A stretch of 64,000 bases of DNA, taken from positions 3,410,001-3,474,000 of the forward strand of contig NZ_CP045118.1 of NCBI RefSeq assembly GCF_009189165.1, written 5' to 3'. The DNA is from Pseudomonas sp. SCB32 (GTDB taxonomy: Bacteria; Pseudomonadota; Gammaproteobacteria; Pseudomonadales; Pseudomonadaceae). Below the pieces are notes generated by a model that was given only the letters and a program-made list of their open reading frames with translations, made no database searches and was not told the origin of the DNA. This document shows positions 8,587 through 59,545 of this stretch, piece by piece. The position numbers and the translations under genes were made by a program. Within the stretch, counting starts at the first letter, position 1; each line of letters begins with the position of its first letter.

Positions 8587-10833
8587 TCACACCTGCAGCT
8601 GAATGCCGATCGGCAGGCTGCGAATGCGCTTGCCCGTAGCGGCGAACAGCGCGTTGGCCAGTGCCGGCGCCAAGGGCGGCACGCCGGGTTCGCCGACGCC
8701 GGTGGGCGGTACCGCCGAAGGCACGATATGCACCTCCACCGCGGGCATCTCGTTGATGCGCAGGACCTGGAAGTCATGGAAGTTGGACTGGTCCACCTTC
8801 CCGTCCGTGAGGGTGATGGCGCTGTGCAACGCCGCCGACAGCGCGAAGCCGATACCGCCTTCCATCTGCGCCTTGATCACGTCCGGGTTGATCGCCAGGC
8901 CACAGTCCACCGCGCAGACCACGCGGTCCACCTTGAAGCTGTGGTCCGCCTTGACCGTCACCTCCACCACCTGGGCCACAAAGCTGCCGAATGACTCATG
9001 CACGGCGATGCCCCGGCCACGCTGCTCGCCCTCGGCGCCCTTGGTCAGCGGCGCCTGCCAGTTGGCCCGTTGTGCCGCCAGCTCCAGTACGCCGCGATGC
9101 CGGGGATGATCCTTCAGCAACGCATGGCGGAACGCGTACGGGTCCTTGCCTGCGGCGATGGCGGCCTCGTCGATCAGCGTCTCGGTGGAGAACGCCGTAT
9201 GGGTATGCCCTACCGAGCGCCACCACTGGGTCGGTACCGTGACGTTCTGGGCCAGGGCCTGCTCGATGCGCAGGTTGGGTACGGCGTACGGCAGGTCATC
9301 CGCACCTTCCACGGCGATCTTGTCGATACCGTCCTTCACCATGACCTTCTCGAAGGGGGTACCGACGATGAAGGACTGCCCGACCAGCCGTTGTTCCCAC
9401 CCCACCAGGTTGCCCGAGGCATCCAGCGCCAGCCGCGCGCGATGCAGGAACGCCGGACGGTAGTAGCCGCCGCGCATGTCGTCCTCGCGGGTCCAGACCA
9501 TTTTCACCGGGGCCTTGATGCCCTGCTCGCGGGCTGCCTTGGCGATGGCCGCCGCCTCCAGCACGTAGTCCGAGTGAGGATTGGCGCGCCGGCCGAAGCT
9601 GCCGCCGGCATACAACTGGGTGATCGACACCTGCTCCGGCGCAACGCCCAGCAACTGCGCCACTGCCGCCTGGTCGGCGGTCTGCCACTGCTCGCCATTC
9701 CAGATCTGGCAACCGCCGTCGTCCTTGAGCTGGACCACGCAGTTCAACGGTTCCATCGCCGCGTGCGCCAGGAACGGAAACTCGTACTCCGCCTCGATGA
9801 CCTTGGCCGGCGGCTGCTTCAGGACCTTGTCGACATCCCCCTCACTGCGCGCCACCAGGCCGGGCTTGCCGGCCATCTCGCGGTACTGGGCGAAGATTTC
9901 CTTGCTGCCCATCCTGAAGGCCTTGCTCTCGTCCCACTCGACCTGCAAGGCATCGCGGCCCTGGCGCGCCGCCCAGGTGTTCTTCGCCAGCACCGCGACA
10001 CCGGCGAAGCGCCGCTCGCTGCCGGGGAACTGCACCACCGCGACCACACCCGGCACCGCCTTGGCCTTGCTCGCATCGACCTTGGCCGGCACCCCGCCGA
10101 AACGCGGTGGGTGGGCGACGACCGCCACCAGCAGGTCCGGCAGCTGGATGTCCTGGGTGAACAGCGCCGAACCGTCGGTCTTGCCGTGGCTGTCGATGCG
10201 CGCCAGCTTCGCCTGGCCGATCAGCTTGAAGTCCTTCGGCTCCTTCAGCTTCACCTCGGCGGACACCGGTTGCCTGGCCGCCGCCTCAGCCAGTTCGCCG
10301 AAGCTGGCCTTGTGCCCGGAGGCAGCGTGGGTCACCACGCCGTCATGCACGTCGATCTGCGCGGCGGGTACCTGCCACTGTTCGGCGGCGGCGCCCACCA
10401 GCATGGCGCGGGCGCTGGCGCCGGCCTTGCGCAGTTGTTCGAAGGAGTTGGCCAGCGCTGTGCTGCCGCCAGTGCCCTGGATGCCGAAGGCCAGGTTGGC
10501 GTAACGCTTGGCGTCAACCGGCGCGCCCTCCACGCGCACCTGGGCCCAGTCGGCATCCAGCTCCTCGGCCACCAGCGTGGCAAGACCGGTGTAGCTGCCC
10601 TGCCCCATTTCCACGTGCTTGGCGATCACCGTCACCGTGCCGTCCGGGGCAATGCGTACAAACGCGTCGGGTTCGAAGTCGCCGGCCGCTTGCGCATCGC
10701 CGATGCGCGCGAGCAACGGCGCGAAATAAATGCCCAGGGCCAGGCCGCCGGCGCCACGAAGGAAATGCCGGCGGCTGAGGTTGAGGATGCCGCGCGACTG
10801 CGCCTCATCCTGATCGATGCGGGTATCGAGCAT
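8587..10833 (-). CDS. Molybdopterin-dependent hydroxylase large subunit (IorB-like)
   Basis: A 748-residue xanthine-dehydrogenase-family subunit of the isoquinoline 1-oxidoreductase beta type. Twin-arginine signal [10 protein letters not shown] (Arg21-Arg22) predicts folded export to the periplasm. Family motifs include [30 protein letters not shown] and C-terminal [12 protein letters not shown], which holds the catalytic glutamate. These enzymes hydroxylate N-heterocycles or oxidise aldehydes at a Mo centre, passing electrons to the [2Fe-2S] subunit encoded 11 nt upstream. Start 10833 is chosen because the frame further upstream is the shadow of that subunit. No haem subunit or cofactor-maturation gene follows, so the electron acceptor and substrate are unknown. 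Confidence 0.9.
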
Positions 10834-48461: not shown

Positions 48462-49502
48462 TTACTCCTGGACCGCCCAGCGGTTGAGCCAGTGCCAGCG
48501 ATGCGGGAAACGCGCCTTCAGGCCCAGGCGGTCGACACGCCAGAACGCCGGCCATTCGCCCTTGACCCGCGCCAGCAGGCGCAGGTTGCGGTTCGGCGCG
48601 CTGAAGGCCTCGCGCAATTCCACCGGTACCGGGGCGGCATCTTCCACCATGCGCACCACCTCCGCCGGCAGCCACGTCCCGTCCGGCAGGCGCACGCGGA
48701 ACGGCTGGCCGGGCGATGCGTACTCGGCAAAGCGCGGATCGAGGTAGATCCAGATCTCGGCCTCGCCGAGACGCTGCAGGCGCATCAGCAAGGTGCCAGG
48801 GCCGACGTTCTCGCCCTCGCCGACCAGGACTTCGCTGATGACGCCCGAATCGTTGGCCTTCAGCTCCAGCCCCTGCAGGCGCGACTGCAGCCAGTCGCTC
48901 TCCAGTCGACGCTGACGATCCAGGGTGTCATCCCCCGGTTGAGCTTCGCGGCGGTCGAACTCCACCAGGTCGCGCTGGCGACGGTCACGCTCGTCCTGGG
49001 CCTGCAGCACTTCCCCTCGGGTCGCCGCACCGGCGGCGAGCAGGCCACGCAGTTGTTGCAGGCGGCTTTCCGCGCTGCTCAACAGGCGCACAAGAGGCGC
49101 GCGTTCGCTTTCGCTGAGGGTCCGGCGCCCAGGTGCCACGGGTGCGGCCTTCGAGGGGTCGGACAGCAGCGCCAGGCGAGCACGCCATTCGGGGTTGTCC
49201 ATGCTCATCAGCAGCTGGCCAGCCGTTACCTTGTCGCCGGGGCGGACCAGCACCTGTGCCACCTGCCCGGCCTCACGGGCCCGCAGCTCGCTGGATGGCA
49301 GGTGCAGTTGCGCGGGCGCCTCGATCAGCCAGAGGCCGAGCATTTCGCGCCCCACCAGGAACAGCAGCGGGCTGGTCACCACCAGCAGGATCAGATACCA
49401 GCGCAGCTTGAACGCCATGCGCTTGCCCGGCGCGTAAAGCACCTTGAGGCCCTGGTCCTGAGTGGGCTGTTGTTCCTTGGGGCTGGAGAATCGAATCTTC
49501 AT
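48462..49502 (-). CDS. HlyD-family periplasmic adaptor of the glycan export operon
   Basis: 346 residues. One inner-membrane helix at about 33-53 (WYLILLVVTSPLLFLVG). A lipoyl/barrel-sandwich half follows (HLPSSELRAREAGQVAQVLVRPGDKVTAGQLL), then a coiled hairpin (about 110-190), the second half (SGVISEVLVGEGENVGPGTLL) and a C-terminal beta domain. It would bridge the inner-membrane glycosyltransferase and the TolC-type protein encoded 7 nt upstream. No ABC or RND transporter is present, unlike normal HlyD systems; Alg44 in alginate export is a comparable adaptor. ATG 49502 is chosen because the upstream frame is the shadow of the TolC gene. Confidence 0.85.
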   Translation of the reverse strand: MKIRFSSPKEQQPTQDQGLKVLYAPGKRMAFKLRWYLILLVVTSPLLFLVGREMLGLWLIEAPAQLHLPSSELRAREAGQVAQVLVRPGDKVTAGQLLMSMDNPEWRARLALLSDPSKAAPVAPGRRTLSESERAPLVRLLSSAESRLQQLRGLLAAGAATRGEVLQAQDERDRRQRDLVEFDRREAQPGDDTLDRQRRLESDWLQSRLQGLELKANDSGVISEVLVGEGENVGPGTLLMRLQRLGEAEIWIYLDPRFAEYASPGQPFRVRLPDGTWLPAEVVRMVEDAAPVPVELREAFSAPNRNLRLLARVKGEWPAFWRVDRLGLKARFPHRWHWLNRWAVQE

Positions 49503-49509
49503 GGGATGC

Positions 49510-51597
49510 TCAATGCGGGAAATGGGACCAGTCCTGCCAGTCGATTCCGGAAACCCCGGCCGCCTGCAGACGCGTACGCCAGCGCTCCACCTGCTGCTGC
49601 AGCTGGACGCGCGACGCCCCGGCCCAGGACTCTTCGGCCGACAATTGCGGCTCGACACTCTGCGCCAGTCGGAAACGCAGCGCCGGCCAACGCCGGGCAA
49701 TGGACTCCGCAAGCTCCGCGCTGCGTTCGGGATTGCGGGTGTAGATCATCAGGCTGACCTGCTTGACACCGCGCTTGGGCAAGGCGCAAGGCACGCAGGG
49801 GCCGCCAGTGGACTCGGCGAACCAGCGCGGGTGGCTGGACAGCTCCAGCGGCCAGTAATCGAGCTGGCCGACGGCACCCACGGTATCCAGCCAGTCCTGC
49901 AGGCGACTGTCGGGCACCGGCCAGCCGAGCTGCTCGACCTCCAGATCCAGGTGCACGGCGTCGAAGCGGATGTCGCGAAGCTGGCCGAGCAGCGCCAGCA
50001 GGTCCTTTCGCCCGCTGGCGGACAGCCAGGCCGGGTCGCCCAGCAGCAGGACGACCTGCATGCCCTGGGCACGGGCGTCGGCCAGGGTCAGCTGGAGCTG
50101 CCCGCGCAGGGTCGGCATATCCGCGACCTGGCGTGCATCGAGTCCGACGTAGAGACGCTGCATGCCGGCGCTGCGCAGTGCCTTCAGTTCGGCGCTGCGG
50201 CTCGTAGGTTGCAGCAGGGCCTGGCTCTTCCACAGGTAGGCCCCCTGGTTCCAGGCCGCGCTCTGGGAGGGGCTGGCCTTCGCCTGCGCCTGCGTACCTG
50301 CCGGCGGCTGCCAACTGAGGTCCTGCACGCCGAGCAGCGGGCTCAATGCCTGGTCATCGTCGACGAACAGGCGCAAGGCGGCTTCGCGCAACCAGACCGC
50401 ATGCCACGCGGCGATCAGGCGCAGGCCGCTGTCATAGCGTTCCAGCTCCACGGCCTGCTCTTCGCTGGGGCCGTCGGACGTTGCACGTTCCGAACGCAGG
50501 CGCTGCTCGCGCAGGGCCACAGCCGAGACGGCGAACTGCTCGCGCTCGCGCTCCAGGCCGTCCACGGCCTGCTGCTGGCCCTGCAGGGCCCTGGCCAGGT
50601 CCTGCAGCAACTTCTGGCGCTCGGCCTTCAACTGGGCCTGGGCCGCCCGTTGGCGCGCCTCCCCTTCCCGCCCACGGGCCTGACCGTATGACAACAGGTC
50701 GAAGGGTGCGGAGAAGTTCAGGCTGGCGACCAGGCCATTCCCGGTGCTGCTGGCCCCGTTACGGTCCTCGAGGCTCTGCGCAACGCTGAAACTGGAATCG
50801 ATGCTGTCATACCAGGGCGACTTCCGGTTCCGCTCCGCATCGCGCAATTCATCCTGGCGCTCCTGCAGGCGCGGATGGCCTTCCAGCGCCTGGCGCCAGC
50901 TGGTCAGCGGCTGGACCCGCGCCGCCAGCGATTCCGCCTGCGCCTGCTGGCTGGGGGAGATATCCAGGCCGGAGAGTTCGGCGAGGCTGGAACGGGTATC
51001 GTCAAGCAGTCGCGCGCTGGTCTCGCAGCGGCGCTGCAGGGACTGCCACTGGCCGTCCAGCAGCTTCGCCTGGGACGGCAGCAACCAGCCCTGGCGCTGC
51101 CGCAAGGCCAGCCGCTCGCGGGCGCCCGACGCGGCGGGCAGCAGGGTCTGGCACCAACGGTTTTCCTCTTCCGCGCGCCACCAGTCGGCGTAGGCGCTGC
51201 GCAGCGCCAGCCGCTGTTCGGCCTTTTGCAGCAGGCGGCGGGATTGCTGCCGCTGCTGTTCGAGCTCGACGGCGGAGACCGCCTGCACTTGTCGCCGCAG
51301 GCTGCCCAGCAAGGGATGGCGCAAACCCAGCGCCATGTTCCGCCCGTAGTAGGTATCGATCACGCTCTCGGTCACCAGCTCGCGATAGTGGCCCGCGCTG
51401 GCCGCGCCGAACCACTCCCAGCCCGCTTCGGCCTCGCGCTGCTCCTTGAGTGCATCCAGGGCATGCAGGTTGGCGGCATTGGCTTGCAGGACGGCGCTGT
51501 CGTCGGCGCTTTCGAGGACCCGCGACAACGGCAGCACGTCGGCCTGGGAGAAGCCGGCGGCCAGCAGCAGGGAGCCAAGGAGCAGGTGACGCATCAT
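49510..51597 (-). CDS. TolC-family outer-membrane protein fused to a C-terminal barrel-like domain
   Basis: 695 residues. Signal peptide MMRHLLLGSLLLAAGFSQA. Residues about 20-435 are TolC-like: two long helical repeats (VELEQQRQQSRRLLQKAEQRL and REGEARQRAAQAQLKAERQKLL regions), giving an outer-membrane channel. Residues about 447-695 are unlike TolC: AYLWKSQALL, LYVGLDARQVADMP, MQVVLLLGDPAWL, FDAVHLDLEVEQLGWP and VKQVSLMIYTRN read like successive strands of a TIM barrel. The DLEVE near 548 sits where glycosidase-type barrels keep acids. This fusion suggests a glycan-processing channel. The start at 51597 has AGAGG upstream; ATG 51594 is an alternative. It begins 4 nt after the GT stop. Confidence 0.8.
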   Translation of the reverse strand: MMRHLLLGSLLLAAGFSQADVLPLSRVLESADDSAVLQANAANLHALDALKEQREAEAGWEWFGAASAGHYRELVTESVIDTYYGRNMALGLRHPLLGSLRRQVQAVSAVELEQQRQQSRRLLQKAEQRLALRSAYADWWRAEEENRWCQTLLPAASGARERLALRQRQGWLLPSQAKLLDGQWQSLQRRCETSARLLDDTRSSLAELSGLDISPSQQAQAESLAARVQPLTSWRQALEGHPRLQERQDELRDAERNRKSPWYDSIDSSFSVAQSLEDRNGASSTGNGLVASLNFSAPFDLLSYGQARGREGEARQRAAQAQLKAERQKLLQDLARALQGQQQAVDGLEREREQFAVSAVALREQRLRSERATSDGPSEEQAVELERYDSGLRLIAAWHAVWLREAALRLFVDDDQALSPLLGVQDLSWQPPAGTQAQAKASPSQSAAWNQGAYLWKSQALLQPTSRSAELKALRSAGMQRLYVGLDARQVADMPTLRGQLQLTLADARAQGMQVVLLLGDPAWLSASGRKDLLALLGQLRDIRFDAVHLDLEVEQLGWPVPDSRLQDWLDTVGAVGQLDYWPLELSSHPRWFAESTGGPCVPCALPKRGVKQVSLMIYTRNPERSAELAESIARRWPALRFRLAQSVEPQLSAEESWAGASRVQLQQQVERWRTRLQAAGVSGIDWQDWSHFPH

Positions 51598-51601
51598 CAG
51601 A

Positions 51602-52930
51602 TCAGAACCTCTTTGCCTTACGCAGCACCCACCAGGGCGCCATGCTGGTTTCTTCATGGCCGCGGCGCAGGGCCTCGTTGAGCATGGCCACGGCGCTCCA
51701 CAGGCGCATGACCAGCATGAACAGGGGGAAGACGAAGACCACCGGGAACAGTTTCAGGTCCTTGCGCGGACGCTCCGAAACCAGGACCAGCATGGCCAGG
51801 TACAACAGCAGGGTCATGCCCAGGTAGACCAGGTAGATGAGCGACGCCAGGGCAAGGAAGCGCGGCAAGGGCACGACCAGGGGACCGATCACGCAGTAGC
51901 CGAAGATGATGAACGGCAGCACCAGCTGGAAGAAGAAGCCGGTGATCAGCGTCATCAGAAAATTGGACCAGCCCAGCAGGCGCGGATTGAAGCTGTGGCG
52001 ATGCTTGCGGATGTAGAGGAAGTACAGGTCGCCATCCCAGCGCAGCCGCTGCTGGAGGAACTGGAGGAACTTCACCGGCGCATCGGTATGCCCGATGGCG
52101 CCGGGCTCGAAGGGGATGCGCAAGGGCTTGCGGCCGAAGTAGTTCTTGATCCGCAGGGTGAGGTCCAGGTCTTCCGCCGTGTGGGTGTCCCAGCCGCCGA
52201 TCTTGTCGAGGAAGCTGCGGCGGAAAGCACCGAAGGCCCCGGAGACGTTGTTCACCAGATTCCACTCGCTCAGGCCGATCTTGGCCATGTGGATCGACAA
52301 CTGGTACTCCAGCGCCTGCATCGCCGTGGTCAGCGAAGCCCAGGCATTGCGCACCCGCAGGCTGCCGGCCACCGCCGGCACGTCGGGATCGGCGAAATGC
52401 CGGACGATCCGACTGACCATGTCGTTGTCGAAGGAGGTGTCGCCGTCCAGCGCCATGATGATCTCGCCGGTGCAATGCGCGAGGCCGGCGTTGAGCGACG
52501 ACACCCGGCCGCCGCGCTGCCATTTGGCGATGGGTCGCAGCAGACGTCGCGGATACAGCGTCGAATCGACGCGGAAGTCCCGCACCGCCTGCATGGTGGG
52601 CTTGTTGACCGCCGCGCCATCGACCACAGGGATCATCTCGATGTAGCCCGGATAAGTCTGCTCGCACAGGCTCAGCAAGGTCTTCTGCACATCCAGACCT
52701 TCGCTGTAGCAGGTGATGATGCAGGACACCCGCGGGCGGTACCCGTTGTCCTTGGGCAGCTCGAAAGGCTTGCGCATGAACCAGCGCAGCACGCCGATCA
52801 GCACCATCAGGTTGAGCGGCACTTCCAGGAGCAGGAAGGCCGGCAGCAACTTGAAGGCCGCCTGGAAGAACCCGTCGCTACGGGCCAACTCCGCGATCAG
52901 CAGCAGCCATTGTTCGATGAAGGCTTCCAT
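51602..52930 (-). CDS. Membrane glycosyltransferase family 2 (synthase-like)
   Basis: 442 residues. N-terminal helix about 27-49 (FKLLPAFLLLEVPLNLMVLIGVL). The GT-A domain has SCIITCYSEG, ALDGDTSFD (DxD-type), TAEDLDLTLR and QQRLRWDGD (QxxRW motif of processive synthases). At least three C-terminal helices follow (FLMTLITGFFFQLVLPFIIFG onwards). This resembles polysaccharide synthases such as hyaluronan, Alg8 or BcsA that polymerise and translocate a glycan. There is no C-terminal PilZ domain. It starts 3 nt after the upstream stop. The sugar is unknown. Confidence 0.92.
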   Translation of the reverse strand: MEAFIEQWLLLIAELARSDGFFQAAFKLLPAFLLLEVPLNLMVLIGVLRWFMRKPFELPKDNGYRPRVSCIITCYSEGLDVQKTLLSLCEQTYPGYIEMIPVVDGAAVNKPTMQAVRDFRVDSTLYPRRLLRPIAKWQRGGRVSSLNAGLAHCTGEIIMALDGDTSFDNDMVSRIVRHFADPDVPAVAGSLRVRNAWASLTTAMQALEYQLSIHMAKIGLSEWNLVNNVSGAFGAFRRSFLDKIGGWDTHTAEDLDLTLRIKNYFGRKPLRIPFEPGAIGHTDAPVKFLQFLQQRLRWDGDLYFLYIRKHRHSFNPRLLGWSNFLMTLITGFFFQLVLPFIIFGYCVIGPLVVPLPRFLALASLIYLVYLGMTLLLYLAMLVLVSERPRKDLKLFPVVFVFPLFMLVMRLWSAVAMLNEALRRGHEETSMAPWWVLRKAKRF

Positions 52931-52933
52931 GCG

Positions 52934-54328
52934 TCAGCCGAGTTGTCCGCCCAGCCTGGCCAGCAGCAAGGCGGCGTCTTCCTGCTCCAACTGGTCGTCC
53001 GGCGCGGTGAAACCGGCAAGGCGGACCTCGATGCGCGTCGCCCGTTCCTGGGTCAGGCGCTCGGCGCCCTTGGCCAGGCGCTGGCGCACAACTTCCAACC
53101 CGGCGGCGTCGGTTTGCGGCATGAGCACCCAGAGCACTTCCTCGCTCATGCGCGAGCAGCGATCTGTCTCGCGCACGGCTTCCTGCAGGCGCTCCACCAG
53201 GCCATCGACCAGGGCGTGGCCACGCATCTCGCCCAGCTCGGAGAGGGTTTCCAGCAGATTGACGAAGCGCAGGCCAAGCAGGGAGAACGGCGGATTGCGG
53301 TGTCGCGTGGTCAGTTGCAACTGCCAGGTGAGCAGTTCCAGGAACGCCTGGCGCGGCAGCAGGCTGAGGCTGCCGAACCGTTCCATGTTCGCCGAGGTTG
53401 CGGCGAAGCCCTCGCGGCAGCGCAGGCGCCCCGCCTCGGCAATGCGGAAGTGGCGCACCTCGCGCACCCGCAACTTGTCCGGCTCATGATTCTGCCCGCA
53501 ATCCAGGCAACGCGCCTCCACGGCGGCGTCGACGAAGAACGCCTGGCAGCTGCGGCAACGGTAGTTCTCAAGGGGGCGGTCGTAGTCACTGCCGATGTGG
53601 CGCAGACGCGTCAGGCAGTTCGGACACAACAGCAAGCCATCCTTGAGGAAGTGCTCCTGGGGTCCGACGTGGCCGCAGGTGAAGCAGTGCAGCGACGGCT
53701 GGCGACCGATGTCCAGGGCCTGGCACTCCGGGCACACGTCCACGTAGTTCAGGCGCCCCGAGCCGCAGCCGGTGCACAGGCGCAGACGGTCCAGCAATTC
53801 GCCCTCTTCGAGCCAGCCCTGCTGCCCCATCAGTTGCAGCCAGGAGAACGGGTTGATCTCCTCGCTGTCGCTCAGGGCTTCGAGAATCGGGTAGCGGTAA
53901 TGCTGGGGCACGGCGGTGTCACGTACAGCGTGCACATCCCCGCGCGAGCGCAGCCAGAGCCAGGCCAGTACGCGCTCCTCGAAGCGAGCCGGAGCCTGCC
54001 CGCGATTGAACAGGCTGAAGCGCTCGCGCCACAGGCGCCAGAGCGGCGTGATTGCGCCCGCCTCGGCCGGCGGCGCACCGTCACCCAGCGCAATGCACCA
54101 GGGGTCAAGATCCTGGCAGCAATAGATCAGGGCAAAGCGATAGCGAGAGTCCTGACGCAGACTGCGGAGCATCTGCCCAGCCTGGAACCCGGGCAGGTCG
54201 ATGATCAGCACATCGTAGGTCGATGCCGACTGCAGGGCGGCCAGATCAGCGTAATGATCCAGTTCACTGCCACGGTAGCGGGAGGAAGCGGTGCCAATGA
54301 CTGCGGCCAGGGGTGACGCGGTATTCAT
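52934..54328 (-). CDS. Zinc-ribbon (TackOD1-like) protein with receiver-like and degenerate GGDEF-like ends
   Basis: 464 residues, no membrane segment. Residues about 20-80 resemble a receiver fold (YDVLIIDLPGFQAGQML). Residues about 195-300 carry five CxxC-type pairs (CTGCGSG, CPEC, CFTCGH, CPNC, CRSC, CLDCG), i.e. tandem zinc ribbons like the TackOD1 output domain. Residues about 340-455 align by eye with GGDEF domains (PPFSLLGLRFVNLLETLSEL, then DRCSRMSEEVLWVLMP), with the GGDEF signature replaced by MSEEV. It is the first gene of the operon, so a c-di-GMP-related regulator is inferred. ATG 54328 has only a weak AGAG. Confidence 0.8.
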   Translation of the reverse strand: MNTASPLAAVIGTASSRYRGSELDHYADLAALQSASTYDVLIIDLPGFQAGQMLRSLRQDSRYRFALIYCCQDLDPWCIALGDGAPPAEAGAITPLWRLWRERFSLFNRGQAPARFEERVLAWLWLRSRGDVHAVRDTAVPQHYRYPILEALSDSEEINPFSWLQLMGQQGWLEEGELLDRLRLCTGCGSGRLNYVDVCPECQALDIGRQPSLHCFTCGHVGPQEHFLKDGLLLCPNCLTRLRHIGSDYDRPLENYRCRSCQAFFVDAAVEARCLDCGQNHEPDKLRVREVRHFRIAEAGRLRCREGFAATSANMERFGSLSLLPRQAFLELLTWQLQLTTRHRNPPFSLLGLRFVNLLETLSELGEMRGHALVDGLVERLQEAVRETDRCSRMSEEVLWVLMPQTDAAGLEVVRQRLAKGAERLTQERATRIEVRLAGFTAPDDQLEQEDAALLLARLGGQLG

Positions 54329-54395: not shown

Positions 54396-54450
54396 GTTAA
54401 TTTGTCGCAGCAATTAACAATTGATAACTTTTCGTCAATTTGTTGACGAA
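54396..54450 (-). promoter_or_regulatory. AT-rich promoter region with a FleQ-box-like palindrome
   Basis: Within an AT-rich island (about 54365-54465) are GTTAATT/AATTAAC (54396-54402, 54412-54418) and TTCGTCAA/TTGACGAA (54431-54438, 54443-54450). The latter contains GTCAATTTGTTGAC, which matches the remembered FleQ consensus GTCaNTAAAtTGAC at 11 of 14 positions, including both conserved ends. It lies about 105-120 nt before the zinc-ribbon gene start. Confidence 0.5.
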
Positions 54451-54838: not shown

Positions 54839-54870
54839 AATGCCCGGAGCACGCAAGTGCTCCGGGCATT
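54839..54870. terminator. Terminator between the small Cys-rich gene and qhpB
   Basis: AATGCCCGGAGCAC (54839-54852) pairs with GTGCTCCGGGCATT (54857-54870), a perfect 14-bp stem with loop GCAA, between convergent genes. On the minus strand TTCTTTT follows. Confidence 0.85.
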
Positions 54871-54890: not shown

Positions 54891-56024
54891 TCAGTTGGCT
54901 ACGAAAGCCTGGCTGGTGGTGATCGCCATGTCGCCGCCGGGCAGCTTCAGATCGCCGAGGCGCTCCAGGCTGTTGGCGTCGAAGATCGCCACGTCGTTGA
55001 AGGTACCGGAGAGGTAAAGCTTGGTGCCGGCCTTGTTGACGGTCAGGCAGTAGTAGGAGTGGTCGAGGTTCGCCGCCTTGACCAGCTTCTGCTCCTTGAT
55101 GTCGTACTTGGTCAGGCGGTTGAGCACACCGTAGATGACGTTGCGGTCGGTCGGCGAGCGCATGCCGCTGAAGTACACCTCGGTGACCGGGCCGAAGTCG
55201 ACGGTCTCGGTCTTGCCGGTGGCCAGGTCGATGTTGAAGAAGCCGTACAGGGCGTCGGCGGTGGCCGGGTCCTGCTTGGCGTCCTTGAACCTGGCGGCGG
55301 TGTAGAACAGCGAGAAATCACGCGAGTAGGTCTGCTGGTTCCACACGTAGAGCACATCCGGCGGCGAGTAGTTCGGGCGCTTCCAGTTGCGGCTGGGGAT
55401 AGCCACATCGAACTTGCCGGTCTTCACATCCACCTTGTAGATGTCCGGGCCCGCCACGTAGAGGGTGCCGTCGTCACCGGTCTGCATGATGGTCAGCTGA
55501 CGTGGCGCCGGGAAGGTGCGCACGGGCTTGGCCTCCATGCCGTCGGCCACCGAGTAGACCTGCAGGCGCGGCTGCTGCACCTCGTAATGCTCAGCGAGGA
55601 TCTGCGTCGGGTTGGCGATGGCATAGATCTCCTTGCCGTCATGGCTGACGGTCATGGAGAACATCGCCCGCGCGTTTTCACCCGGCTTCTGCGCGATGGT
55701 GGCGTGGAACACCGGCTTGCAGTCGCTGAGCTGCAGGCCGTAGATGTCCGCGTAGTGGTTGGTCAGGATGTAGACCACCTTGCGATCCGGCGACAGCTGG
55801 GTCATGCCCGGGCCGTAGGCGCCGGGGATGGTGCAGGTCTTGAACAGCTTGTCGGTCTGCATGTCGATGACGTGCAGGTTGTTCGGGTAGTTGGTGCTGA
55901 TCAGGTACTCGTGGCCACTTTCCAGCGCCTTGCTCTTGTCGGCGTCGGCATCAGCGGCGACGGCTTGCAGCGCGCAGGCCAACGAGAGGCCGCCGAGCGC
56001 GGCGGCGAATGCTTTTCTGGACAT
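54891..56024 (-). CDS. qhpB: Quinohemoprotein amine dehydrogenase, beta subunit
   Basis: 377 residues. Signal peptide about 1-23 (KAFAAALGGLSLACALQAVAA). The mature part is a seven-bladed beta-propeller with repeating short motifs (NNLHVIDMQTDKLFKTCTIPG, GLQLSDCKP, LYVAGPDIYKVDVKTGK). It forms the periplasmic amine dehydrogenase with the di-haem alpha and CTQ-bearing gamma subunits encoded upstream. ATG 56024 with AGAGGAAAA preserves the signal peptide; the frame further upstream is a shadow of qhpC. It is the last gene of the operon. Confidence 0.93.
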   Translation of the reverse strand: MSRKAFAAALGGLSLACALQAVAADADADKSKALESGHEYLISTNYPNNLHVIDMQTDKLFKTCTIPGAYGPGMTQLSPDRKVVYILTNHYADIYGLQLSDCKPVFHATIAQKPGENARAMFSMTVSHDGKEIYAIANPTQILAEHYEVQQPRLQVYSVADGMEAKPVRTFPAPRQLTIMQTGDDGTLYVAGPDIYKVDVKTGKFDVAIPSRNWKRPNYSPPDVLYVWNQQTYSRDFSLFYTAARFKDAKQDPATADALYGFFNIDLATGKTETVDFGPVTEVYFSGMRSPTDRNVIYGVLNRLTKYDIKEQKLVKAANLDHSYYCLTVNKAGTKLYLSGTFNDVAIFDANSLERLGDLKLPGGDMAITTSQAFVAN

Positions 56025-56053
56025 GCAGGTTTTCCTCTTGTTCTTCTGTCCGC

Positions 56054-56377
56054 TTATTTGTCGTCCGGGAATACGGTGCCGAGGTTGCGCCAGTTCTCGG
56101 CCGAGGCCTGCGCATCCTTGTTCCAGTCGGGGTAGGTACTCATCATGTCCGGCACCTGGGCCGGCCACCAGCAAGGGTCGGAGCAGCCGTAGAGGTCCGC
56201 TTCCATCGGCTGGCAGAGCGAGGACACACCGCCGAACACGTCGATTTCCCAGCCCGGGTCGGTGGTCGAGGCGCAACCTGCCACGGAGTTCATCGCCACC
56301 ACGTCCTCGATGCGATCCTCGGCGGCGGCCTGTTCAAGCTTCTGTGCTTTGTTGTTGATGGCTTTCAGATGTTTCAT
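56054..56377 (-). CDS. qhpC: Quinohemoprotein amine dehydrogenase, gamma subunit (CTQ-bearing)
   Basis: A 107-residue precursor of the catalytic gamma chain. With a 28-residue leader, every cross-link known from the family is present. Thioethers Cys35-Glu44, Cys55-Asp61 and Cys69-Asp77 correspond to mature 7-16, 27-33 and 41-49. Cys65 with Trp71 forms the cysteine tryptophylquinone (mature 37 and 43). The N-terminal leader [16 protein letters not shown] is the recognition part for the radical-SAM enzyme encoded 1 nt upstream. It oxidises primary amines in the periplasm. The gene is intact. Confidence 0.97.
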
Positions 56378-56378
56378 G

Positions 56379-57809
56379 TCAGTGCGCCTTCCGCGGAGTG
56401 ATGTGGCGGTCGATGAAGCCGGGGTTGGAAGCCATGATCCGGCTGTAGACCTCGATGCCGAAGTCGACCCAGTCCCTCATCAGTTCGCAGTAGTGGTAAG
56501 TGGGATGCGCCGGATCGCCGTAGCGCGCGTAGCTCTCGTGGTAGCAGCCGCCGGAGCAGAGGTTGCGGATGCGGCAGCTGGCGCAGCCGGTGTCGGTGCG
56601 GTCCAGGCGCTGCGACAGGAAGTCGTTCAGCTCGGCCTGCTTCACCCCTTCATGCACGTTGCCGAAGGTCGGCAAGGATGAGCCGGTGAAGCGGTGGCAG
56701 AGGTTCAGCTCGCCCTTGTGATCCACCGCCAGCATCTTCAGGCCGGCACCGCACGGCAGGGCCTTCTTCTGCCCTTCGTGGATGTCGGTGATCAGCTGGT
56801 GCAGGTTGGAGAAGCCGATGTTGCGCCCTTCCAGCGCCTCGTCCAGGTACCGCCGGCCGAGTGCCTTCATGTTGGCGAACACCTGCTTGAGCTCCTCCCC
56901 GGTGAGGTTGAAGCTGCTGATGTCGCCTGAGGTGACCGGCGCGAAACCGACCTCGGCAAAGCCCATCTCGTTGAACAGGTGGTCCCAGATGGTCTCGACG
57001 TCGGTGACGCCGGTGGTCAGGGTCACCCGCGCCCCAACCGGCCGCGAGGTATAGCGCGAAAGCAGCATGTCGGCCTTGCGCCGCACCACGTCATAGGTGC
57101 CCTGCCCGCCCACGGTGATGCGGTTGCGGTCGTGCACCGTCTTCGGCCCGTCGATGCTGATCGACAGACCGAAGCGATGTGCGTTGAGCCAGTCGATGAT
57201 CTCTTCGGTGAGCAGCGTGGCGTTGGTGGTCATGACGAAGTCCACCGTCTTGCCCAGCTCGCCGAAGCGACGCTCGCAATAGGCGACCATGTGCTCGATC
57301 AGCGGGCGGTTGGACAGCGGCTCGCCACCGAAGAACACCACAGTGTAGCGCTGCTCGTCCGGCGACTCCTTGATCAGCATTTCCACCGAAGCCTCGGCGG
57401 TCTCCGCGCCCATCTTCTTGCCGGCGGAGGGCTTGTCCAGGTCTTCCTTGTAGCAGTAGGTGCAGCTCAGGTTGCAGCCGGTATTGACGTTCAGCACCAC
57501 GGTGTTGAGCGCAGTGCGGTCAACCTTCTTGATGCCGATTTCAGGGGTCAGCGGCGACCCATCGCTGACCAGCTCCAGCGCGATCAGCTCGCGCAGGGTC
57601 TCATCGATTTCCTCGGCGGCAAAACGCCCGCCCAGGCGTTGGGTCAGCTCGTCCGGCGAGCAGGCATGCCCGCGCAGCGCGTCGATGATCCCACCGGTCA
57701 GCTCGTCGCTGGCGAACAGCGAGGAGCTGGGGATGTGGAACAACAGGCGGTCGTCGTCCACCCGCACTTCGTGCAGGTTGCGTTCGACCAGATTCAAGAT
57801 GGCGCCCAT
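56379..57809 (-). CDS. qhpD: Radical SAM/SPASM maturase of quinohemoprotein amine dehydrogenase
   Basis: 476 residues. Radical-SAM cluster Cys112-x3-Cys116-x2-Cys119 (GCNLSCTYC). SPASM/twitch auxiliary-cluster cysteines follow in [28 protein letters not shown] and YHYCELM. This enzyme forms the three Cys-to-acid thioether bonds in the gamma subunit in the cytoplasm before export. ATG 57809 has GGGAGG. Its stop is separated from qhpC by one nucleotide, giving tight coupling of enzyme and substrate. Confidence 0.95.
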
Positions 57810-57885
57810 GGCGACCTCCCGGAACTCTCAGGATGTGCCCGCCCGAAGGCGGGACTCACGCGTTCAGTTCATCCGATTCCGACTG

Positions 57886-59454
57886 TTATGGGATCGGCGG
57901 GTTGTTCCAACGCTGCACGGTCACGATCATGTGCCCTTCGCCCTTGTGCGACTGGCCCGCGTCGTCCACCGCGGCAATCACCTTCAGGTTGCCGGCGTTG
58001 TTGGTCATCATCTTGCGTGCCGGGTTCGGACCGGCGTCGCCCGGGGTGAAGATACCGGTGTCGGCATCCATCTCACCGGCGAACTTCACGTCCTGGTCTT
58101 CCTTGGCGCGGTCATCGAAGGGCTCAACCGACCACTGCGCGGGGAACACGCCGATGCGGAACGGCTTGCCGTCGGCGCCCTTGCCCCAGGCCTCGGCGTC
58201 GAAGCTGCCCTGGACCTTGGGCGTGGAGCCGCCGTTGCCGCCGATGCGGGCGACGGAAAACTCCGGCACCACCTTCACTTCGGCGATGTCCTTGTACACG
58301 GCCAGGTTGCCGCCCTTGGCGGTGCCGACGGTGACATCGTGCTCACCGAGCGCCGCCGCATCGCCGGCCTTGACCTTGACGGTCACGCGCTCAGGGGTCT
58401 GCGATACCACCGAGACCACATCCACGCCCTTGCCGAACGAAGGCTTGCCCTTCAGGCCGGTACCGACCACGGTGACCTCGGTCTCCGCGCCTGCCTTGAT
58501 GTACGCCGGCTGAACGCCCAGCACGTGGCTGGTGCCGCTCTTGGCCGCGACGAAGTCCAGACCGCGTTCGTCGTGGGCCTTGTCGAACATGCGGCCCTGC
58601 ATCTGGCCATTGAGAGCAGCGAACACCTGACGCATGCTCAGGTCACCCACGGTGACGTTGCCGCGCCACTCGTAGCCGTTGTACAGCACCGCGCTGCCTT
58701 CACCCTCGAACGCCTCGCCATCGGCGTACTGGCCCTTCACGCTGACCTTGAACGCATCGTCGCCGCTCTTGGCCACGCTCATGGTGCCGGCGAGGTCGCC
58801 CTTGCCCGGCATGTGCCCGGCGAAGCTCCACTCACCCGCCAGCGAATCGGCCTTCGGCCGGTGCTGCTTCCAGTCGCTCCAGGCCTGGCTGTCCAGCGGA
58901 TAACGCTTGGCCAGTTCCGGAACCATGTCCTTCTTCGCCAGATCGAACCAGTCGCGATCGCGGGCCAGCGCCTGGTATTCCAGCGATGGCCAGCGGCCGA
59001 GGTGGAAGTTCACCAGCTTCTCCCACTCCGCCGCCGGGCGGCGCTGCAGGGCAATGCGCGCACCCGAGTGGCAGCGGGCGCACATCTGCTCGAAGTTGGT
59101 ATCGAATTTCTCGACGGTGTTCAGCCGGCGTTCCAGGGCGTAGCGCACGCCGTCGGTTTCGCTGGGCGCCAGGCCCTGCTTGTCGGCAAGGAACTTGACC
59201 ACCGAGCGACGCTCGTCATCGGTGATCTTCAGGCCGTACATCACCTGCATCCGCCCAATGCTCATCAGCCAGCCCTCGGGGGTCTTGCGCTGGTGGCTGA
59301 TGCGGCTCAGGGAATTGTTGCCTTCGGGCGTGTGGCACGCCTGGCACTTGGCGTTGATGATCGCCTGGCCATCGGCGGCGTTGGCCGGCTGGTGCAGCGC
59401 TAGGGCCAGAGCGGCCAGGGTTCCGGCACCCAGACAGTGCCGAAGTCGTGTCAT
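57886..59454 (-). CDS. qhpA: Quinohemoprotein amine dehydrogenase, alpha subunit (di-haem)
   Basis: 522 residues. Signal peptide about 1-26. Two c-type haem motifs, CQACH (37-41) and CARCH (125-129), are followed by beta-sandwich domains. It takes electrons from the CTQ subunit and passes them to a soluble acceptor such as azurin or cytochrome c. ATG 59454 is preferred because it places the signal peptide at the N-terminus; the GTG at 59502 would add an unrelated leader. It is the first gene of qhpA-D-C-B, and a candidate sigma-54 promoter lies about 95-110 nt upstream. Confidence 0.95.
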   Translation of the reverse strand: MTRLRHCLGAGTLAALALALHQPANAADGQAIINAKCQACHTPEGNNSLSRISHQRKTPEGWLMSIGRMQVMYGLKITDDERRSVVKFLADKQGLAPSETDGVRYALERRLNTVEKFDTNFEQMCARCHSGARIALQRRPAAEWEKLVNFHLGRWPSLEYQALARDRDWFDLAKKDMVPELAKRYPLDSQAWSDWKQHRPKADSLAGEWSFAGHMPGKGDLAGTMSVAKSGDDAFKVSVKGQYADGEAFEGEGSAVLYNGYEWRGNVTVGDLSMRQVFAALNGQMQGRMFDKAHDERGLDFVAAKSGTSHVLGVQPAYIKAGAETEVTVVGTGLKGKPSFGKGVDVVSVVSQTPERVTVKVKAGDAAALGEHDVTVGTAKGGNLAVYKDIAEVKVVPEFSVARIGGNGGSTPKVQGSFDAEAWGKGADGKPFRIGVFPAQWSVEPFDDRAKEDQDVKFAGEMDADTGIFTPGDAGPNPARKMMTNNAGNLKVIAAVDDAGQSHKGEGHMIVTVQRWNNPPIP

Positions 59455-59545
59455 CTTCAAGGTCAGGCCTCCTCGGTATTCTTGTTGGTTATTCGTGCCC
59501 ACCGATGGGCTAAGCGCGATGGTGTCGAACGCTTGCTAGCGATTT

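Follow-up and report, generated by a model that had tools for sequence, protein, structure and literature searches.

A probable Mxd-type exopolysaccharide operon of Pseudomonas sp. SCB32 with a TolC-type duct fused to a putative glycoside-hydrolase-like domain

Overview

The window analysed here, a stretch of 64,000 nucleotides (nt) of Pseudomonas sp. SCB32 (contig NZ_CP045118.1, positions 3,410,001 to 3,474,000), carries four consecutive minus-strand genes, designated A, B, C and D, which quite probably encode an Mxd-type, synthase-dependent exopolysaccharide machine with its own outer-membrane exit. Gene A (52934..54328; 464 amino acids, aa) encodes an MxdA homologue composed of a TackOD1 domain and a degenerate GGDEF domain, and its product is predicted to be a receptor for cyclic diguanylate (c-di-GMP). 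Gene B (51602..52930; 442 aa) encodes an MxdB homologue, a processive-type synthase of glycosyltransferase family 2 (GT2). Gene C (49510..51597; 695 aa) encodes a TolC-type outer-membrane duct fused to a TIM barrel that is putatively glycoside-hydrolase (GH)-like, and gene D (48462..49502; 346 aa) encodes an MxdC homologue, a periplasmic adaptor of the HlyD/membrane fusion protein (MFP) type. The intergenic gaps are 3, 4 and 7 nt with the starts as called, and both gaps and coordinates agree with an earlier note on this DNA. The same note had regarded the cluster as undescribed and without a named counterpart, a view that has to be given up, because A, B and D, three of the four products, are homologues of MxdA, MxdB and MxdC of a published system.

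Homology to the mxd operon

The mxd operon of Shewanella oneidensis is a c-di-GMP-linked biofilm operon, and the two papers that characterise it, PMC3691769 (2013) and PMC7666153 (2020), describe biofilm and aggregation defects as the mxd phenotypes. A published mxd promoter primer matches exactly in 1 of 129 genomes (G619) of a genus, g227, that was taken as Shewanella from a member protein matching the solved OmcA structure 4lmh at 1054 bits. In this one genome, the five primer parts tried are all located upstream of a gene of 462 aa, which is followed by genes of 442 and 362 aa, and the three-gene run was therefore taken as mxdABC of S. oneidensis. In BLASTP comparisons with these three proteins, A shares 35% identity with MxdA over 422 aa (E 7e-78), B shares 51% with MxdB over 430 aa, and D shares 27.5% with MxdC over 374 aligned columns (E 4e-26).

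Two Pfam domains are recognised in A, TackOD1 (E 6.9e-65) and GGDEF (E 2.3e-7). The zinc-ribbon-type TackOD1 domain (PF18551, 218.6 bits) spans residues 113-296 (53441..53992), and the degenerate GGDEF domain (PF00990, 31.1 bits) spans residues 324-428 (53045..53359). The RxxD I-site of GGDEF domains binds c-di-GMP. Conservation was followed in a locus set made up of the window, 12 loci of its class, 80 named loci and 16 loci of the order that includes Shewanella, from which the duplicates L031, L033 and L035 (same contigs as L046, L062 and L058) were removed before the A, adaptor and C proteins were counted. Among the 103 A proteins of at least 200 bits in this set, the I-site, RETD in the window (53162..53173), keeps its arginine in 96 and its aspartate in 101, whereas GG[DE]EF occurs in 0/103; twelve cysteine columns of TackOD1 are kept in at least 99. 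Because the I-site is retained while the GG[DE]EF motif is lost, A looks like a c-di-GMP receptor, a candidate of the same kind as MxdA, for which c-di-GMP binding has been published (PMC7666153, PMC11395469). A weak Pfam match to PelD_GGDEF (E 0.018) is also seen. In the zinc-ribbon regulator proposed in the earlier note, the zinc-ribbon-type part is TackOD1; the degenerate GGDEF domain had been overlooked, and the protein is better described as a TackOD1-GGDEF protein and a candidate c-di-GMP receptor. According to its published description, TackOD1 has 11 conserved cysteines and an obscure function (PMC5847659). In the literature searched, most of it outside subscription journals, the term appears only in work on archaeal two-component systems, and no Mxd paper using it was found. 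MxdA itself matches TackOD1 (E 4.7e-71), with GGDEF slightly under the cut-off (E 1.1e-4), and so carries a named domain common to several phyla.

B matches GT2 families of Pfam (best E 3.8e-19), and both sequence and alignment place a DGD (DxD) motif at 52439..52447 and a QQRLRW (QxxRW) motif at 52037..52054, as expected for the membrane GT2 recognised before. Its PDB profile matches include hyaluronan synthase and cellulose synthase. In a GT2 tree computed without L039, L113 and L153, the window, L030 and 15 further rows including MxdB form a 17-row clade with a Shimodaira-Hasegawa-like approximate likelihood ratio (SH-aLRT) support of 99, and the two PgaC rows fall outside it.

TolC half, TIM barrel and adaptor tip

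C was previously seen as a TolC-type protein with an extra domain. Pfam recovers its OEP/TolC part (E 3.2e-8), and about 250 C-terminal residues are matched by no model. An AlphaFold model, made for C and for its barrel alone (for C, predicted local distance difference test, pLDDT, 89.7; predicted TM-score, pTM, 0.61), shows a complete TolC fold in residues 22-419 (50341..51534), whose helices are about 70 residues long and whose barrel part has four strands, and identifies the extra domain, residues 445-695 (49513..50265), as a TIM barrel. This domain aligns structurally with GH18 and with the PgaB GH domain, among others, and, as in GH18-like domains, conserved acidic residues stand at the end of strand 4. 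D551 and E553 of the D-x-E motif at this position (49939..49947) are each kept in 71 of 72 locus C proteins of at least 600 aa, the window included, and E649 at the end of strand 7 (49651..49653) is kept in 70 of 72; all three are present in 120/120 database homologues. They are putative catalytic residues, and the domain is putatively glycoside-hydrolase-like, a fold that by itself shows no activity. Among homologues of C with a named source, the closest are Pseudomonas proteins, e.g. that of P. nitroreducens at 86%.

D was rightly taken for an HlyD-type adaptor (HlyD_3, E 1.4e-11). The tips of such adaptors dock on TolC, as is known from work on AcrA. In D the predicted TolC-docking hairpin tip reads GAATRGE (residues 158-164, 49011..49031), and its position aligns with YISKQE of AcrA. 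The tip tracks the TolC half of C. Among D proteins of at least 130 bits, 70 of the 76 adaptors with a neighbouring C gene have the tip AAT and the other 6 have SA[TNS], and neither form occurs in 23 adaptors without a TolC half, namely 21 without C and those of L206 and L207. Both of the latter loci encode, between GT2 and adaptor, a separate barrel protein with a signal-peptide-like start and no TolC half (3504-4358 in L206, 4785-5684 in L207). The truncated contig L060 was excluded from the 23: its adaptor reads AAT, the one case among 22 C-less adaptors, and its contig is cut where C is expected. All 36 adaptors of C-bearing operons in Pseudomonadaceae (34, the window and L030) read AAT; they include G699, in which the C frame is cut by the contig end.

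A switch within one genus, g332, allows the TolC half and the hydrolase domain to be told apart as partners of the tip. In G797 and G911 the operon keeps only the separate barrel protein, the TolC half being lost, and the tip is AVS, whereas three genomes of the genus with a TolC half have AAT. Both G797 and G911 deviate at 4 of the 64 near-invariant columns of the adaptor, and among these 4 only tip residues 160-161 are strictly invariant in the other 36 adaptors. On a GT2 tree of 100 rows, from which L037, L038, L158, L060 and both PgaC rows were left out, TolC half and tip agree in 98/98 rows that have both traits, with three changes each; one of the three lies inside a single genus, and both pairs on well-supported branches change in the same direction. 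This coupled evolution supports a conduit formed by GT2, adaptor and TolC, and in this indirect way also favours the proposal, made in the earlier note, that the GT2 takes the place of a pump.

A scaffold function of C and D is the strongest alternative, although an unlikely one. According to it, the glycan bypasses TolC, C and D present the hydrolase domain in the periplasm, and the polymer leaves by another outer-membrane protein. L206 and L207, which retain a separate barrel without the TolC half, and the clusters of the Shewanella order, in which the C profile finds no C gene, would fit such a function. However, the modelled TolC fold of C is complete in both strands and helices, and the adaptor tip varies with the TolC half, not with the hydrolase barrel.

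Distribution of the gene cluster

Of 274 genomes scanned in the class, 14 have a TackOD1 match above the Pfam cut-off, and 12 of these matches, including that of the window, are strong. A B-related GT2, in fragments in L039, adjoins A at 10 of the 11 other strong loci; at the remaining one, L032, a TackOD1-GGDEF protein (8624-10015) stands without a related GT2 alongside. When named genome contigs were searched with the GT2 alignment, 308 relatives were confirmed, and the 80 best of them, not a random sample, were analysed. The gene order is A-B-C-D in 62 and C-D-A-B in 12, two loci of Legionellales lack C, and in the remaining four, with three of the genes each, the cluster is cut off by the end of the contig. 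Because 74 of the 80 loci, which were retrieved with the GT2 alone, contain all four families together, their grouping goes beyond chance; this is the co-occurrence that had been suggested as a check. The loci belong to Pseudomonadota, Thermodesulfobacteriota, Myxococcota, Synergistota, Planctomycetota and others (NCBI ranks), many of them as metagenome bins whose taxon labels may be wrong.

In the order of genome G139, taken from SeqA for Enterobacterales in the GTDB sense, 16 of 295 genomes have a GT2 match of E 1e-60 or better. In fifteen of these loci (E <=1.7e-166) the order is A-B-D, and the C profile detects no C gene. The sixteenth, L158 (2290-8035), belongs with L037 (6324-12098) and L038 (3923-9703) to a divergent subclass in which a protein of 673-699 aa precedes an HlyD-like adaptor, a TackOD1-GGDEF protein and a GT2; this protein in C's place gave no Pfam family over the cut-off in the two members scanned. 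In L144 (1027-6634) a pga-type cluster adjoins an A-B-D cluster, its PgaA barrel being recognised by Pfam and its PgaB- and PgaC-like genes by eye, with a weak GT2 match.

The distribution bears on a second, rather improbable explanation, in which D and C supply one half of a conventional pump, for efflux or type I export, whose ATP-binding cassette (ABC) or resistance-nodulation-division (RND) partner is encoded elsewhere, and A and B are concerned with a separate surface glycan. Pumps are the usual partners of the HlyD and TolC families, the NCBIfam models that D matches best are those of RND and type I adaptors, and an RND-like flanking family, as judged by eye, recurs within 6 kb in L034, L078 and L084. 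However, the four-gene run of the window contains no ABC or RND gene, as noted before, and screening by motif and length found none inside the cluster in any of the 80 loci. ABC-motif open reading frames (ORFs) of 544-656 aa are found within 4 kb in L084, L085, L097 and L105, in each case on the strand that does not carry the cluster, and were taken for ABC-F/EttA-like proteins by length alone; an ABC or RND partner in the cluster was therefore rejected. Moreover, B and D still cluster where C is gone, and the reported mxd phenotypes are defects in biofilm formation and aggregation (PMC3691769, PMC7666153). Recurrent flanking families, named by eye, are chemoreceptor/kinase-like (13 loci), EttA-like (12), GalE-like (8) and RND-like (3), the last being the only transporter-like one recognised. 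The GalE-like epimerase genes stand beside the cluster in L062, L065, L067, L095, L098, L118, L119 and L124, and also in L206 and L207; such recurrent neighbours are a hint of the donor sugar.

In the family of the window, a TackOD1 gene (E 1e-20) is present in 38 of 248 genomes and the barrel (E 1e-15) in 48, including all 38. All ten barrel loci without TackOD1 were inspected, and most of them look like decayed clusters. L208 and L213-L217 contain a 354-aa ORF with a GT2-tail remnant at its start and the barrel at its end, next to a 621-aa gene; the copy in L208 has a signal-peptide-like stretch and its neighbour is a polysaccharide deacetylase by Pfam. Another TackOD1-less genome has a 327-aa barrel ORF beside the same type of gene, and one 621-aa and one 650-aa gene, the two scanned, are both polysaccharide deacetylases. 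L209 (7709-9736) and L210 (7527-9557) encode a TolC-barrel fusion beside a deacetylase-like gene (Pfam, L209 copy), with no A, B or D nearby.

Nature of the polymer

The best curated GT2 model for B is PgaC/IcaA at 118.6 bits, far under the PgaC cut-off of 422.3, and E. coli PgaC shares 29% identity with B by BLASTP. Together with the deacetylase neighbours, this nearest model hints at an N-acetylated glycan, and a glycan containing N-acetylhexosamine (HexNAc) is our best guess for the polymer. That the operon is a poly-GlcNAc (Pga-like) or cellulose (Xcs-like) system in a different gene order is improbable: PgaC/IcaA is the best curated match, the barrel aligns with the domains named above and in two relatives that were scanned the barrel gene has a polysaccharide deacetylase next to it, but the PgaC cut-off is missed by a wide score difference, the four proteins contain no PgaA barrel, deacetylase or PilZ, and the two PgaC rows are separate in the GT2 tree.

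Proposed mechanism

From relations in sequence and fold, we infer binding, transport and hydrolysis as follows. A would sense c-di-GMP through the I-site of its inactive GGDEF domain, a binding that has been published for MxdA only, and switch on the synthase. B would, as other members of its family, polymerise sugar nucleotides and push the chain across the inner membrane, so that no ABC or RND pump would be needed. D would bridge B to the TolC half of C, the GAAT hairpin tip being the docking site, which is consistent with the coupled evolution of the two. The glycan would then leave through the TolC barrel of C, and the periplasmic TIM-barrel domain may trim or release it. In other systems the hydrolase domains of PgaB, BcsZ and PelA are thought to act in this way. 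The C-less clusters of Shewanella and related genomes of its order, and those of the Legionellales relatives, presumably borrow another TolC.

Several points weigh against an Mxd-type machine with such an exit. Identity between D and MxdC is just 27.5%, and TolC-borne glycan transport for Mxd was not found in the literature searched. The tip and the TolC half change only three times, so that significance is out of reach (sign test, p 0.5), and the pattern [AS]A[TNS] was widened after the data had been seen, strict AAT accounting for 70/76. The barrel alone gives Foldseek TM-scores of about 0.5, with many non-hydrolase TIM barrels ranking beside GH18; Pfam recognises no GH family in the barrel of the window, and the GH18 model stays below its cut-off among 20 barrel members, its best E being 0.012 in one of them. 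The association between barrel and operon is not a strict one, since 10 of the 48 barrel-bearing genomes have no TackOD1 gene. Finally, the low PgaC score of B means that the polymer is not readable from the GT2.

We lean slightly towards a broader picture in which pump-less, c-di-GMP-gated tripartite glycan exporters are widespread, with a GT2 acting as the pump and a TolC fused to a glycan-processing enzyme, and in which Shewanella Mxd is derived, having lost the duct, re-tuned the tip and borrowed another TolC. With the C-bearing relatives, Mxd-type systems gain candidates for the exit, TolC, and for a processing enzyme. With the adaptor tip as a predicted docking site, direct feeding of a glycan by its synthase into an adaptor-TolC conduit becomes a testable question.

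Operon boundary and upstream region

Upstream of A lie genes of a quinohemoprotein amine dehydrogenase (54891-59502, minus strand), with alpha and gamma subunits and a radical SAM protein recognised by Pfam and a beta subunit, without a Pfam match, assigned by position alone. A terminator-like hairpin on the minus strand (54839..54870), with a 14-pair stem followed by a T-rich tail, separates these genes from A; the terminator scan overall gave 4 such sites versus 3.4 expected. Because of this hairpin and the short gaps, a single operon of four genes is plausible. A FleQ-box-like palindrome, GTCAACAAATTGAC, lies 119 nt upstream of A (54434..54447, minus strand), with one mismatch to the consensus, for which no source was found in the literature searched. 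Sites with at most two mismatches occur in 4 of 37 upstream regions of the family (shuffle mean 0.075) and in none of the other 33, those of the three other genomes being at -117 to -125. Because the box is present in so few upstream regions, it was set aside as evidence. The sigma-54 pattern gave 5 matches versus 7.2 expected, none in the promoter region.

Comparison with known systems

In the Pel system, the GAF-containing membrane protein PelD is a c-di-GMP receptor with a degenerate GGDEF domain and an I-site. A shares the degenerate GGDEF domain and the I-site, but carries TackOD1. The barrel of C differs from the GH domain of PgaB in its fusion to TolC and in having no deacetylase domain, with no meaningful BLASTP similarity between them. 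No PgaA barrel or PgaB deacetylase was matched by Pfam in the four window proteins, and membership in Pga was rejected on this ground, on the missed PgaC cut-off (118.6 vs 422.3 bits) and on the position in the tree.

The statement in the earlier note that GT2 synthases are not paired with TolC plus HlyD was too strong, because such a route has been proposed for Xcs (PMC12430437) and MFP/HlyD-like partners of synthases are known in Alg44 and BgsB (PMC3815931, PMC9495663). In the alginate system Alg8-Alg44-AlgK-AlgE, Alg44 carries a MexA-like MFP domain beside the GT2 Alg8 under c-di-GMP control (PMC3815931), a GT2 with an MFP-domain partner as in the window; however, c-di-GMP is sensed there by PilZ on Alg44, and the exit is the AlgE porin, not TolC. 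In the rhizobial BgsBA system for mixed-linkage beta-glucan, BgsB with its HlyD-like domain precedes the GT2, but c-di-GMP is bound by the C-terminus of BgsA, and the accessible text of PMC9495663 describes a two-gene operon and names no TolC gene. Xcs, with the GT2 XcsA, the HlyD-like XcsB and TolC, is a route proposed for cyanobacterial cellulose in Thermosynechococcus (Maeda et al. 2018, via the review PMC12430437), and the set includes an endoglucanase, XcsC. Both an HlyD-like adaptor and a TolC-like duct are present in the window operon. However, XcsA is a PilZ-bearing cellulose synthase, the xcs genes are scattered in Thermosynechococcus, and the accessible part of the review mentions no hydrolase fused to TolC. 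PilZ, which Alg44 joins to its MFP domain in one protein, has no Pfam match in any of the four window proteins, and membership in Xcs was rejected on the latter ground.

The closest relative is mxdABCD of S. oneidensis MR-1, in which MxdA is a c-di-GMP effector, MxdB a GT2, MxdC a homologue of an 'efflux pump' and MxdD a hypothetical protein. A, B and D are homologous to MxdA, MxdB and MxdC and stand in the same order save for the inserted C, and A and MxdA have the TackOD1-degenerate GGDEF architecture in common. No C-like gene is seen in the mxd cluster, whereas the window operon has C; the tip is VVP in MxdC and AAT in the window adaptor; and A to D have no BLASTP match to the 122-aa ORF taken as MxdD by position. 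In Shewanella L149 the next ORF of at least 100 aa is on the other strand, and in L153 it has 181 aa and lies 284 nt away; MxdD may not be needed as a defining member of Mxd operons. The literature searched contained no link of mxd with TolC and no TolC-hydrolase fusion. The synthase-adaptor-TolC idea itself has been proposed before, for Xcs; what is new relative to Mxd is a dedicated, enzyme-fused TolC in a widely conserved operon.

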